Below, piece by piece: positions 14,549 through 38,941 of a stretch of 38,941 nt of DNA. Source of the DNA: Pseudanabaena sp. FACHB-2040. GTDB lineage: Bacteria; Cyanobacteriota; Cyanobacteriia; Phormidesmidales; Phormidesmidaceae. The translations under genes and the position numbers were made by a program. Numbering within the stretch: the stretch's first letter is position 1; each line of letters starts with the position of its first letter. A model generated the notes under the pieces. It worked only from the letters and a program-made list of their open reading frames with translations. It was not told where the DNA came from and did no database searches. The DNA lies in contig NZ_JACJQO010000003.1 in assembly GCF_014696715.1 (NCBI RefSeq), positions 1-38,941 on the forward strand, given 5' to 3'.

Positions 14549-14702
14549 GTTAGAAACCAGGTTTCTATTCTCAGCCTAGTCTGAAGCTGCTGAGCATGTA
14601 AGAAACCCGGTTTCTTAAGCGTGGTGTTAGAAACCGGGTTTCTATTCTCAAGCTAGTCTGAAGCTGCTGAGTGTGTAAAAAACCCGGTTTCTTGAGCGTG
14701 TA
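14549..14702. repeat. Two 77-bp tandem units with AGAAACCGGGTTTCT palindromes
   Basis: Each unit carries two palindromes of the cyanobacterial type AGAAACC(C/G)GGTTTCT, at 14552-14566, 14601-14615, 14629-14643 and 14678-14692, separated by a shared linker containing CTAGTCTGAAGCTGCTGAG. The spacing between equivalent positions is 77 bp for both palindromes, so the whole unit was duplicated. A few substitutions separate the copies. These palindromes can form hairpins in either strand. Confidence 0.85.
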
Positions 14703-17347: not shown

Positions 17348-17516
17348 ATGTGAGCCGGGTTGTTGCTAGCGACGAACGAAATTAAAGGGTAGGTCGCCAT
17401 AAAATGCTTGAGTGGATTTCCGCAATCTCGCCATCTCGAACTGGATCACAGTAATTGAAGATGGGTCTGCGCCAAGTTGGGCCTCGACTCTACATCGAAT
17501 GGGAGACATAATTGCC

Positions 17517-18077
17517 ATGCCTCACAGTGGTAAAAGGTGGAGAAGTGCTGCTTTCTACACCCTTTCAGGCGTCTTTTTAACAGTCTTGCTGGCTAACACT
17601 TCATGCAGCCGGGAGCCGGAAATGACGACATGGTCTCACAGTCAGTTTGTAGAACAGGTAAAAAGCGGGCAGATTGAAAGCGTCATCATGAGTAATGACG
17701 GGTTGGAGGCAGTCGCAACAAAGCGTGATGGACAGCAGGTAACCGTAAATTTGAGCTCTACCGATCTGGAATTGATACCTGTTTTGCAGCAAAACGGTGT
17801 TGATGTTTCAATGGTGCCTCAGCAATACGAAGATAGTTTTCCCGAAAATAATTCTCTCTTAGTGCTTCCTATCTTCCCCCTCTTAATATCGGCTGCAATT
17901 GCGTTAGGCGGTTTCTTATTCTGGCTTTGGATGTTGATTGACTGTGCCATGAAGGAGACGGATGAAGGCAACAGCAAGCTCGTCTGGGTGCTGATTATTC
18001 TATTTGTGAATTTTCTTGGCGCACTGGCTTATTTCTTTATCAGAAGACCTCAGCGTCTCAGAGATTTAGGGCAGTAG
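17517..18077 (+). CDS. FtsH_ext-like / PLDc_N-like small membrane protein
   Basis: 186 residues from the ATG at 17517, with GGGAG 12 bases upstream; earlier in-frame starts at 17499 and 17412 give poor N-termini. A hydrophobic signal or anchor (about 11-30) ends TSCSREPEM, where the cysteine could be a weak lipobox. Next comes a domain of about 65 residues, WSHSQFVEQVKSGQIESVIM to VLQQNGVDVSMV, which matches the periplasmic FtsH_ext domain of FtsH proteases. Two membrane spans follow with the LWMLIDCAMKE and LVWVLIILFVNFLGALAYF pattern of the PLDc_N domain. There is no AAA or peptidase domain. It may bind FtsH substrates or FtsH itself, but that is inference. Confidence 0.65.
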   Translation: MPHSGKRWRSAAFYTLSGVFLTVLLANTSCSREPEMTTWSHSQFVEQVKSGQIESVIMSNDGLEAVATKRDGQQVTVNLSSTDLELIPVLQQNGVDVSMVPQQYEDSFPENNSLLVLPIFPLLISAAIALGGFLFWLWMLIDCAMKETDEGNSKLVWVLIILFVNFLGALAYFFIRRPQRLRDLGQ

Positions 18078-18352
18078 GGGGGTGCGATCGCAACCTTACC
18101 TCTACCCTAAATCCCAACTCCGGCTGCCTAAGCGTATCTGTTGGGTTAAGAGTCTGCATAGAATTTGGTCTTGTGATGAGACTGTCCTATACCTAAATGA
18201 GTCTCATTTGTATACGCATGAGTCCTTCTTGAACTCTTAAGTTGATTCAACCCGCTACAGCTGCATTCATTGATGCCACTAAGCTAGCTATTGGCCTAAA
18301 AGCTTGCAGTAATGGAGGTGATCAGGCAAAGCAAAAAGCATTAGTCGCTAGT

Positions 18353-18625
18353 GCTTATTACTTAAGGGCTTTGGTTTATTCATTAAGGGCAATTGTTTAT
18401 TGCTTAAGGACTAATGCATAAGCAAACGGGATAAATGCTTATTGCATAGCAGCAATTGTTTATTGCTTTGTCGTTAATGTATAAGCCAACAGGATGAATG
18501 CTTATTGCATAGCGACAGTTGTTTATTACTTTGCCCTTAATACATAAGCTAACAGGATGAATGCTTACTACATAGCGACTTCGCTTTATACGTTAGCGAT
18601 TAGGGTATAAGCAAGATGAACTAAT
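18353..18625. repeat. 21-bp monomer array arranged in 63-bp trimers
   Basis: The array is made of 21-bp monomers starting with G(C/T)TTATT or GCATAAG-type sequence at 18353, 18374, 18395, 18416, 18437, 18458, 18479, 18500, 18521, 18542 and 18563, with degenerate ones to 18625. From 18395 they form a 63-bp higher-order unit A-B-C repeated three times: A at 18395, 18458, 18521 (gtttattgctt); B at 18416, 18479, 18542 (cataagc-aaca-ggat); C at 18437, 18500, 18563 (gcttattgcatagc). B and C are partly inverted copies of each other (ATGCATAAGCA against TGCTTATTGCAT), so each trimer can form a cruciform. Every frame has stops. There are no unique spacers, so it is not a CRISPR. Confidence 0.85.
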
Positions 18626-18695
18626 GCTTGCTGCGGGGTTGCGATCGCAATCTGCGTTTGGCTTATGCCATTCTCCTAAGCTACAGAACAGAGCT

Positions 18696-18726
18696 GTAGG
18701 ATGGGCAAAGCAAAGCGTGCCCATCA
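18696..18726. repeat. GATGGGCA hairpin repeat
   Basis: GATGGGCA (18700-18707) pairs with TGCCCATC (18718-18725) around a loop of 10 nt, AAGCAAAGCG. The context GTAGGATGGGCAAAG is a widely dispersed cyanobacterial intergenic repeat type. Confidence 0.65.
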
Positions 18727-18840
18727 CAACCTATATCGAGGCAATCTTGCGATCGCGTACAAAAAGCTGAAGAAATTGCCAGAACTTTGCCGCTGGCCCT
18801 ATGGTAGTGGGGACAACAGATAGAGTGGAGCAATCGATTA

Positions 18841-20379
18841 ATGGCGTTATCGACGGCTCAGGTTAACTGGGCAGCCCTGCAAAACGGGTCGGATATTCGT
18901 GGAGTCGCCCTAGATGGGGTTCCCGATGAAGCCGTTAACCTCACCCCTGACGTTGTCACAATTTTGGGTAAAGCCTTTGTGACCTGGCTGGCCTCGCAGC
19001 TAGAGAAACCTGCGGCTGAGCTGACGATCGCTGTAGGCCGCGATAGCCGTCTGTCTGGCCCAACCTTAATGCAGGCAGTCATCGAAGGCATGGCTGCCCT
19101 AAGCAGTCGGGTGTATGACGTGGGGATGGCGTCTACCCCGGCTATGTTCATGAGCACCGTGTTGCCAGACTTTAGCTGCGACGGTGCGATTATGCTGACT
19201 GCTAGCCACTTACCGTTCAATCGCAACGGGCTCAAATTTTTTACCCGCCAAGGAGGGCTGGGTAAAGGAGACATCACCCGCATTTTGCAGCTGGCTGAGC
19301 AGGCAGCCTTTAAAGACGCAGCGGTTCCCGGAGCCATTGAAACCCGTGATTTAATTTCAGCCTATGCAGCGGGCTTGGTGCAGACAATTCGGCAGGGGGT
19401 GAACCATCCCGAACAGTTTGACCAGCCGCTACAGGGGCTCAAGATTGTGGTGGATGCGGGGAATGGGGCCGGTGGTTTTTACGCCAGTCAAGTGCTTGAA
19501 CCCTTGGGAGCAGATACCCACGGCAGCCAGTTTTTAGACCCCGATGGCACCTTTCCAAACCACATTCCCAACCCTGAAAATGAGGCGGCTATGGCCTCGA
19601 TTTGTCAGGCTGTGCTCGCTAATGGGGCAGATTTTGGCATCATCTTTGATACCGATGTCGATCGGGGTGCGGCGGTAGACCACCAGGGGCAAGAACTGAA
19701 CCGCAACCGCTTAATCGCGCTGATTTCAGCAATCGTCCTGCAAGAACATCCCGGCTCTACCATTGTGACCGACTCCATCACCTCTGATGGGTTGACCCAG
19801 TTTATTGAGGGTGATCTGGGAGGCATTCACCACCGTTTCAAGCGGGGATATAAGAACGTCATTAACGAGGCCATTCGGCTAGACGAATCGGGCCAACCCT
19901 CTTGGCTGGCGATTGAAACCTCTGGTCACGGGGCGATGAAAGAAAACTACTTTTTGGATGACGGGGCGTATTTGGTGAGCAAGCTGCTGGTAGAGCTGGC
20001 AAAGGCTCGATTGGCAGGCAAGCGGTTGACTGACCTGATGGCGGCCCTACAAGAACCCCAAGAAAGTCGGGAAGTTCGACTCAAGATTCAGATGCCTGAC
20101 TTCAAGAGCTATGGCACTGAGGTGATCGATCAGCTACAGGCGTTCGTTGCGACTCAGCCTGATTGGGCAATGGTGCCCAACAATTACGAGGGGGTGCGCG
20201 TTGCTTGCCAGTCTCCTGAGGAAAACGGCTGGTTTTTGCTGCGGCTCTCCCTACACGATCCGGTGCTGCCGCTGAATATTGAGTCCAACAGATCAGGGGG
20301 TACGGCTAAAATAGCTGAACGCCTGCGAGCCTTTCTTGCTCCGCTGGCAGGATTGAACATCTCAGAATTGGAAAGGTAA
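18841..20379 (+). CDS. Phosphomannomutase/phosphoglucomutase family protein
   Basis: A 512-residue alpha-D-phosphohexomutase. The phosphoserine loop is MLTASHLPFNRNGLKF with S122; the usual N-P after TASH is L-P here. The metal loop DTDVDRGA (about 275) supplies the three aspartates of the canonical DGDADR. The sugar-binding loop is ETSGHGAMKENYFLDDGAYL (about 360) and the C-terminal phosphate loop is SNRSGGTAKIAE (about 483). The four-domain layout is complete. It interconverts sugar 1- and 6-phosphates for glycogen, cell-wall or glycan synthesis. A permease gene follows after 9 bp. Confidence 0.88.
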   Translation: MALSTAQVNWAALQNGSDIRGVALDGVPDEAVNLTPDVVTILGKAFVTWLASQLEKPAAELTIAVGRDSRLSGPTLMQAVIEGMAALSSRVYDVGMASTPAMFMSTVLPDFSCDGAIMLTASHLPFNRNGLKFFTRQGGLGKGDITRILQLAEQAAFKDAAVPGAIETRDLISAYAAGLVQTIRQGVNHPEQFDQPLQGLKIVVDAGNGAGGFYASQVLEPLGADTHGSQFLDPDGTFPNHIPNPENEAAMASICQAVLANGADFGIIFDTDVDRGAAVDHQGQELNRNRLIALISAIVLQEHPGSTIVTDSITSDGLTQFIEGDLGGIHHRFKRGYKNVINEAIRLDESGQPSWLAIETSGHGAMKENYFLDDGAYLVSKLLVELAKARLAGKRLTDLMAALQEPQESREVRLKIQMPDFKSYGTEVIDQLQAFVATQPDWAMVPNNYEGVRVACQSPEENGWFLLRLSLHDPVLPLNIESNRSGGTAKIAERLRAFLAPLAGLNISELER

Positions 20380-38152: not shown

Positions 38153-38941
38153 TCACTTTAGTCCTTGTCGAATTTGTTTCTTTAATTGCTTTACTTCCCC
38201 CTTCAAAAGTATTGTCTTTGGATGTTTCTGACCTAAGACTTCGTTGAGAATAAATAGAGATTTTTCAAGAACCTTTAGAGCTTCTAGGGGCTGCTCATTT
38301 TTTTCATAAAGTTTTCCTAGTGTTCGAATGCGCTCAGCAAAATATTGGCTTTTAGTTTCATGACGCTTATGTTTAATATCTTGCCATCTTTCCAACAATG
38401 AGATAGCTTCTTGATAACGCTTTTGCCTTTGATAAAGACTTGCCAAGTTATTCAAACTGATAGCGGTATTGGGATGATTTTCTCCTAGTTGCTCTTCTAC
38501 AATTTGCAAAGCACGGACATAAAGAGGTTCTGCCTCTCCATATCGTCCTGTATTTTTGTAGAGGCTTGCCAAGTTGTTCAGACTAGCAGCAGTATCAGGA
38601 TGATTTTCTCCTAGTTGCTCTTCTACAATTTGCAAAGCACGGACATAAAGAGGTTCTGCCTCTCCATATCGTCCTGTATTTTTGTAGAGGCTTGCCAAGT
38701 TGTTCAGACTAGCAGCAGTATCAGGATGATTTTCTCCTAGTTGCTCTTCTACAATTTGCAAAGCACGGACATAAAGAGGTTCTGCCTCTCCATATCGTCC
38801 TGTATTTTCGTAGAGGCTTGCCAAGTTATTCAGACTAGCAGCAGTATCAGGATGATTTTCTCCTAGTTGCTCTTCTACAATTTGCAAAGCACGGACATAA
38901 AGAGGTTCTGCCTCTCCATATCGTCCTGTATTTTTGTAGAG
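38153..38941 (-). CDS. Tetratricopeptide-repeat (kinesin-light-chain-like) protein, partial
   Basis: The 3' end of a gene that runs off the right edge; 262 codons are visible. It consists of 42-residue TPR units of the kinesin-light-chain type with DTAASLNNLASLYKNTGRYG, EAEPLYVRALQIVEEQLGEN and HP. Three full units plus a partial one at the right edge are almost identical; a more divergent unit and a C-terminal helical tail follow. In cyanobacteria such repeats are commonly the sensor part of larger proteins with NB-ARC, CHAT or other N-terminal domains, but the N-terminus is outside the window. The gene is AT-rich compared with most of the window and has no HIP1 octamer. Confidence 0.92.
   Translation of the reverse strand, partial: LYKNTGRYGEAEPLYVRALQIVEEQLGENHPDTAASLNNLASLYENTGRYGEAEPLYVRALQIVEEQLGENHPDTAASLNNLASLYKNTGRYGEAEPLYVRALQIVEEQLGENHPDTAASLNNLASLYKNTGRYGEAEPLYVRALQIVEEQLGENHPNTAISLNNLASLYQRQKRYQEAISLLERWQDIKHKRHETKSQYFAERIRTLGKLYEKNEQPLEALKVLEKSLFILNEVLGQKHPKTILLKGEVKQLKKQIRQGLK
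38508..38941. repeat. 126-bp near-identical direct repeats
   Basis: Units start at 38508, 38634, 38760 and 38886 (period 126 bp, one TPR unit each). The first two are identical at every base, the third differs at two positions, and the fourth is cut by the window edge. Identity at DNA level, including third codon positions, indicates recent duplication or gene conversion. Confidence 0.9.

Follow-up and report, generated by a model that had tools for sequence, protein, structure and literature searches.

The window analysed here, 38,941 nucleotides at the start of contig NZ_JACJQO010000003.1 of Pseudanabaena sp. FACHB-2040, carries a non-coding array of 21-bp tandem units, which we read as the gene-less copy of a two-component element made of a 21-bp helically phased DNA platform and a small DNA-binding protein. 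This reading is given a probability of about 0.45. The arrays form a family, are linked to a small gene, recur in the same genome as gene-less copies with the unit of a gene-linked array, and bear no coding signature. The array type, which accompanies most copies of the small gene and also stands alone, is an apparently undescribed element of filamentous cyanobacteria.

A 21-bp tandem array in a gene-free gap

The array occupies positions 18334-18634 and consists of 14 in-phase 21-bp units (18334-18627) followed by a few bases, with no small gene or remnant of one near it. A sequence-only reading of the window had described a 21-bp repeat with a 63-bp super-period; the repeat proved real, with a span slightly wider than the 18353-18625 given at that time. 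Within 18353-18625, self-identity at lags 63, 21 and 42 was 0.69, 0.48 and 0.46, compared with 0.20-0.31 at 12 other listed lags and 0.271 ± 0.028 (maximum 0.373) in 2000 shuffles, and TRF called 63-bp and 21-bp arrays on the window as well. The 63-bp super-period, taken as the lag-63 segment, spans 18374-18634. Two clear A-B-C trimers of 63 bp are located at 18439-18501 and 18502-18564 (75% and 71% identical to the reference copy at 18376-18438), and the left part of the array (18355-18417), 65% identical to the reference trimer, is built of three simpler units, namely TTATTACTTAAGGGCTTTGGT and two more. Identity also remains raised at multiples of 7, with 0.41 at lag 7 vs 0.48 at lag 21.

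The gap at 18078-18840 is free of ORFs of at least 80 aa, and each of the six frames of the array is broken by 5-12 stops, in agreement with the earlier description of a gene-free gap with stops in all frames; the array is non-coding. The proposed inverse complementarity of monomers B and C turned out to be weak (at best 10/21 positions, the same as for B against itself), but longer imperfect inverted repeats with 40-nt arms (70%) are present. Compared with dinucleotide shuffles, which break the repeat, the array has the more stable fold on each strand (z -3.75 and -4.34). Rfam gave 0 matches within the window at gathering scores. Directly after the array, at 18641-18648, lies GCGATCGC, presumably HIP1, which is likewise found at the edge of the sibling array on contig C22 described below.

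Both neighbours of the array are encoded on the plus strand. The left one (17412-18077) is a 221-aa protein with FtsH_ext (PF06480) and PLDc_N (PF13396) domains by Pfam, that is, an FtsH extracellular-type domain fused to PLDc_N without the FtsH ATPase. The right one (18841-20379), whose product we take to be phosphomannomutase/phosphoglucomutase-like, starts about 200 bp past the array. The array and the left neighbour were absent from the 80 relatives' loci fetched via this right-hand gene, three of which are non-cyanobacterial and some of which hold almost no upstream DNA; the upstream DNA common to them was restricted to the ~60 bp immediately 5' of the gene. Two other repeats were noticed in the window. 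A 77-bp unit occurs in two copies (90%) at 14549-14700, with GTTTCTATTCTC and AACCCGGTTTCTT, and AAACCCGGTTTCTT-like stretches are seen in loci L070 and L078. A 126-bp repeat in four copies at 97% lies in or beside an ORF at 38439-38941 and reaches the contig end, and the contig probably breaks in this repeat.

Related arrays within and beyond the genome

When the window's genome (G000, with C3 the window contig) was searched with the window array, a clear relative was found on contig C22 (69% over 245 bp), together with 41 weaker matches. The plus-strand stretch 18404-18648 of the window matches G000:C22:182295-182539 on the minus strand, which is the strand of the small gene there. Four of the 43 matched loci were opened (the window, C22, C5:361705-361880 and C2), and the weak matches C5:361705-361880 and C2:85176 proved to be arrays of 21-bp period; the C2 array, used as a query, led to a further array at C5:858413 with periods of 21, 42, 63 and 84. 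The remaining matches were mostly 15-30 bp long, at the query end near GCGATCGC. Another match of the C2 query, C5:717560, was rejected as an array, being a short inverted pair only. The window-type arrays of this genome have a common phase and unit, TTAAGCATTTGCAGCTTTTGC, and a palindromic junction, TGCTTAAGCA.

A profile built solely from the sequences of 18 in-phase 63-mers detected five arrays in the same genome (on C2, on C3, which is the window's, twice on C5 and on C22; matches on C24 and C39 at E > 0.5 were left out) and, among 63 genomes from the same taxonomic family, gave window-type matches in 16. Many of these matches had a 21-bp period once opened, and L186, L195, L197 and L201 had no clear period. 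Applied to six genomes of two other families, picked for carrying the small gene, the profile returned 19 loci in 4 genomes, all of one family, and the 8 distinct arrays (12 locus rows) checked among them had periods of 21, 42, 63, 84 or 189. Judged by these matches, arrays of the window type also occur in further genera and in a second family. The array is not satellite DNA of a single locus. A common dispersed transposon end, named earlier among the findings that would refute the observation, was not what the dispersed copies turned out to be: those opened in the window's genome are tandem arrays, intergenic or under short doubtful ORFs only, and a transposon end or insertion sequence was rejected on these grounds.

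A 400-kb sample of the window's genome contained two non-coding tandem arrays, with periods of 39 and 55, and 0 arrays of 21 bp. The 400 kb sampled from genome G405 (L372-L391) held 28 non-coding tandem arrays, among them 15 of 7 bp that resemble short tandemly repeated repetitive (STRR) sequences and several of 72-79 bp that we presume to be CRISPR-like. Three 21-bp arrays were present in the G405 sample, none of them within a gene-carrying stretch; that in L383 stops 1 kb short of the end of its stretch, and a gene could lie beyond.

Arrays upstream of most copies of a small gene

Among the genes adjoining arrays, one common small protein was found beside three arrays in three genera. The C22 sibling, 69% alike to the window array, lies upstream of the gene for this ~120-aa basic helical protein. 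The gene is present in 29 of 63 family genomes (maximum 12 matches per genome, some of them partial) and in 22 of 386 genomes sampled across the phylum, mostly from two other families; copy numbers from the phylum search are lower bounds, with at least 11 matches in some genomes. To judge from its sequence matches, the gene is often multicopy. Many of the genomes with 11 or 12 matches belong to family f18, whose members are probably heterocyst-formers.

An array of 21, 42 or 63 bp was located upstream of 84 of 111 distinct gene copies (segment score, with a lag score above 15 as threshold), and the same score at lags 18, 19, 20, 22, 23 and 24 was reached by 1/111. This set excludes loci with under 400 bp of upstream DNA as well as copies that do not differ in the last 150 bp. 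Upstream arrays were counted in 46/67 copies from the window's own family and in 38/44 from the phylum sample, and the count stood at 82/105 without the 6 loci that had been entered through their arrays (2/6 scoring). After grouping of the proteins at 72% identity, 36 of 44 groups had at least one upstream array; a clear array was missing in 27/111 gene copies and 8/44 groups. A later fetch, overlapping the earlier set, gave a score above 15 for 8 of 12 copies. Coding DNA favours lags that are multiples of 3. Lag 21 was among the top 3 lags upstream of 49/70 and downstream of 17/70 copies in the first set, and among the top 3 of 54 lags upstream of 38/48 and downstream of 13/48 copies in the phylum set, which shares one copy with the first. 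The earlier statement that nothing nearby identifies the array's protein is true for the window; the relatives, with arrays upstream of most copies of one gene, supply a candidate.

As a control, 373 other ORFs were scored, 338 of them from the loci fetched with the right-hand gene and mostly from other cyanobacterial genomes. Ten reached the array score upstream: five through 7-bp repeats, two through masked N runs, two through one 63-lag repeat in L100, and one through the window's own array, besides which no true 21-bp array was found upstream of the 373.

In the 90-array set (lag score above 12), the median array length is about 204 bp and the median distance from array end to start codon 243 bp (quartiles 174-290). 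Example upstream arrays from distant genomes are nearly perfect repeats, and all six gene copies of genome G069 have an array. Upstream of the gene copy in L305 (G140), two different 21-bp arrays stand in series, one with a AATGCCATTGTTTCAACTGAC unit and one of window type. Genomes with a window-type match carry the gene in 14 of 16 cases and those without in 15 of 47 (Fisher p = 1.3e-4, a value inflated by shared ancestry); this table has doubtful rows because the four weak profile matches named above lack a clear period.

Clustering of the ORFs that neighbour the gene copies revealed no widely shared partner, the widest cluster, which we take to be the Uma2-type family common in cyanobacteria, covering 10 loci, and no ParM-like partner was noticed when the clusters were judged by eye. 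A plasmid search returned one record, an unannotated 1.2-Mb Kovacikia replicon. Viral carriage was rejected, none of the 176 matches to the peptide pattern in IMG/VR being a relative.

A basic protein modelled as one long helix

The protein, about 120 aa long, is basic at its N-terminus and in its tail, with a long helix between them. Its pI ranges from 8.0 to 10.2 with a median of 9.7, and its net charge is about +5 over residues 1-20, -4.6 in the middle and again about +5 in the tail (n = 70 for both). The residues invariant among 35 aligned representatives include Y53, D61 and G101. AlphaFold2 predicted a helix at 9-24 and a long helix at 36-89 (54 residues), with pLDDT 84.7 and pTM 0.56. 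The model shows no known DNA-binding fold, Foldseek found no match to the PDB at E <= 0.001, and the best profile match to PDB sequences had an E of 0.054. Pfam assigned no family to three copies tried, and for four copies neither an NCBIfam match above the cut-off nor a family in PHROGs or PADLOC was obtained, the best E being a chance-level 0.0097. If the model is correct, a rod of ~80 Å with basic ends would be compatible with DNA sites 21 bp (~71 Å) apart.

The period is kept and the unit is not

With 10.5 bp per turn of the DNA helix, no whole number of bases below 21 completes whole turns. Units vary between gene copies and the period is constant, with super-units of 42, 63 or 84 bp frequent on the 21-bp unit. 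Similarity of the units tracks similarity of the proteins in close relatives only: below 65% protein identity the Mantel rho was 0.01, and 193 of 500 permutations were as high, which argues against a conserved base-specific site. No base-specific motif common to all array types was seen by eye either. The units lean towards dyad symmetry: the mean z was 1.75 over all n = 90 (SE 0.17) and 1.02 when restricted to the n = 31 clear units (SE 0.23). Substitutions exceed indels in the arrays, weakly, by 17.4 to 11.5 in a comparison biased by array detection. Across 41 non-redundant arrays, lag 7 was not raised (z 0.9 for the consensus, -0.5 raw). In the same 41 arrays, all gene-linked, bases at a distance of 10 or 11 are, unexpectedly, equal less often than by chance (raw z about -5), and AT/GC content tends to switch from one helical turn to the next (W/S z -3.2).

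Arrays that stand without the gene

In the window's genome, four gene-less arrays are of the same type as the gene-linked array on C22, and two (on C8 and C12) are of the type of the gene-linked array at C5:16004; at 4:1 and 2:1, gene-less arrays are the more numerous there. In G405, a gene-less array 2.1 Mb away matches a gene-linked array at 88%, and a second gene-linked array is matched by a gene-less one at 97%. This latter pair lies in a duplicated segment (L380 6446-7152 and L313 466-1204), patchy upstream and 97% identical over 445 bp, whose homology covers the upstream flank and the array and ends at about the array's 3' end, one copy having the array without the gene. Arrays may serve as recombination breakpoints. 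In G069, none of the three gene-less arrays matches the six gene-linked ones beyond 14 bases, which rules out that all its gene-less arrays come from its gene-linked ones. Near gene-less arrays, 16 loci were searched for decayed remains of the small gene and none appeared at E < 1. Some gene-less arrays, such as that in L032, are not upstream of an obvious gene. A 133-codon ORF across the gene-less array on C12 (L329 4077-4478) reads as hydrophobic heptads.

Discussion

The open-access literature searched on cyanobacterial 21-bp repeats, the protein's heptapeptide motif and related repeat classes holds no description of this element, in line with the sequence-only reading, which knew of no named element with such a structure; an account in an older subscription journal is possible. 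Several known systems resemble it in part. In ParMRC/parC, the small DNA-binding protein ParR, of ribbon-helix-helix fold, has a short direct-repeat array by its gene, with units that differ between systems. The element described here likewise has a small protein, a putative DNA binder, a direct-repeat array near the gene and differing units, but it is chromosomal and often multicopy, its unit letters are uncorrelated with the protein, the predicted model is one long helix, and no ParM-like partner was noticed by eye among the neighbour clusters. STRR sequences are heptanucleotide intergenic tandem repeats of filamentous cyanobacteria. The present arrays are intergenic tandem repeats too, and that of the window retains some 7-bp sub-periodicity; they differ from STRR in their constant 21 bp, in the absence of a raised lag 7 across types and in their gene linkage, and STRR membership with a 7-bp unit was rejected on the constant period.

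In REPIN-RAYT systems, a gene has its own adjoining repeat type, several flavours occur per genome and repeats are found elsewhere, Nostoc punctiforme being one of the genomes studied (PMC3116915). Here, too, a repeat stands beside a gene and gene-less copies of the same type exist, for two types in G000 and two pairs in G405, with 0/3 in G069. By contrast, RAYT is a tyrosine transposase and the protein here, short, basic and helical, matches no transposase family; REPINs consist of short palindromes in hairpin doublets, and the present 21-bp repeats form tandem arrays about 200 bp long. Identity of the small gene with RAYT was rejected in view of the lack of a Pfam family for three copies and of an NCBIfam, PHROGs or PADLOC family for four. 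By analogy, the system logic may be like that of REPIN-RAYT or of an iteron centromere, and we file it under neither because the protein falls into no transposase family and inspection by eye revealed no partner NTPase. ToxIN also has tandem repeats upstream of a small gene; the present element differs from it in repeat length, in the large gap, in the two-strand folding and in the predicted protein fold. A ToxN-like endoribonuclease fold was rejected, as the AlphaFold2 model is mainly two helices, with no PDB match at E <= 0.001 and no PADLOC match. NsiR1 resembles the element as a set of tandem direct repeats upstream of a gene, in its case hetF in Nostoc; it differs in being an sRNA of ~60 nt that occurs 12 times in tandem, each copy having its own promoter, and the passages on it mention no tie to the small protein (PMC9045159).

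Four other explanations were weighed against the two-component element. The arrays might be functionless, expansion-prone 21-bp tandem DNA, a higher-order relative of the 7-bp STRRs, with the gene neighbourhood as inherited baggage. Such DNA would agree with units that diverge freely, with the raised identity of the window array at multiples of 7, with the richness of G405 in 7-bp arrays (15/28 in 400 kb), with the G405 duplication that carries array and flank without the gene, and with the excess of gene-less over gene-linked arrays in the window's genome. We nevertheless consider it unlikely, since 36/44 protein groups keep an upstream array of the same period while the letters turn over, since 21-bp arrays are missing from 400 kb of the window's genome and from all control ORFs but the window's own, and since lag 7 is not raised over the 41 non-redundant arrays. 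A cis-acting curved DNA, in which two-turn repeats sum their bends into an upstream architectural or promoter element and the small protein is not the ligand, is less probable still. It would account for a period kept without its sequence, and a gene does follow the window array at 200 bp, oriented as in the gene-linked sibling. Curvature computed with a wedge table was 8.66 degrees per turn for period-21 column-permuted repeats vs 7.05, and 9.17 for the real arrays (50/84 higher than permuted): curvature is raised by the period itself and hardly by the letters, and as a selected property it was set aside as weak, the real arrays being barely above the permuted ones. Curvature also leaves one gene family's preference unexplained (84/111 vs 10/373), as well as the gene-less arrays with no obvious downstream gene (L032).

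A type III toxin-antitoxin-like arrangement, in which a repeat RNA made from the array would restrain the small protein, a toxin, appears improbable to a high degree. The array does lie upstream of a small multicopy gene with units that differ per copy, and arrays fold slightly better than column-permuted controls on the sense strand (mean z -1.14; 45 of 90 arrays folded). The antisense strand, however, folds as well or better (-1.38), and somewhat better folding of both strands is expected of DNA dyads, not of one RNA. The 21-nt unit, the median gap of 243 bp, the long-helix model with its lack of PDB and PADLOC matches, and gene-less arrays that have no role in such a scheme all speak against it. 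Coding repeats, with 21 bp as 7 codons of heptad-repeat peptides or their remnants, are scarcely credible, even though at least one frame is open in 59/90 arrays and one C12 array lies inside the 133-codon ORF: column-permuted arrays have open frames just as often (1.56 vs 1.52), the synonymous share is unchanged (0.439 vs 0.434, n = 77), variability is not focused in one codon phase (0.412 vs 0.428), and every frame of the window array is stopped.

For the two-component element, we propose that the ~120-aa protein would bind the array in oligomeric form, lining a single face of the DNA, and that helical spacing would therefore matter more than letters. The gene-linked array would be the home or operator site, and the gene-less arrays, that of the window included, would be further occupied sites or leftovers of duplication. 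The downstream role may lie in chromosome organisation or gene control. Of the earlier proposals, the best fit is an array whose equal sites, all on one face of the helix, would be bound by a protein. Pfam showed no replication, partition or recombination gene among the six flanking proteins scanned from arrays in the window's genome. A bolder form of the proposal, which we hold as doubtful, is that small coiled-coil proteins with basic ends could assemble on any sequence repeated every two turns, reading the period and not the letters; with a home array by most paralogous genes, the dispersed gene-less arrays could then be docking sites that organise the chromosome of multicellular cyanobacteria.

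To our knowledge, known array-binding systems recognise a conserved site. It is unusual that an unnamed, conserved and often multicopy protein family is tied, across a large evolutionary distance, to arrays that keep only their repeat length. The linkage supplies a candidate partner protein for otherwise unexplained tandem repeats of filamentous cyanobacteria, and the system makes it testable whether a protein recognises helical periodicity itself.
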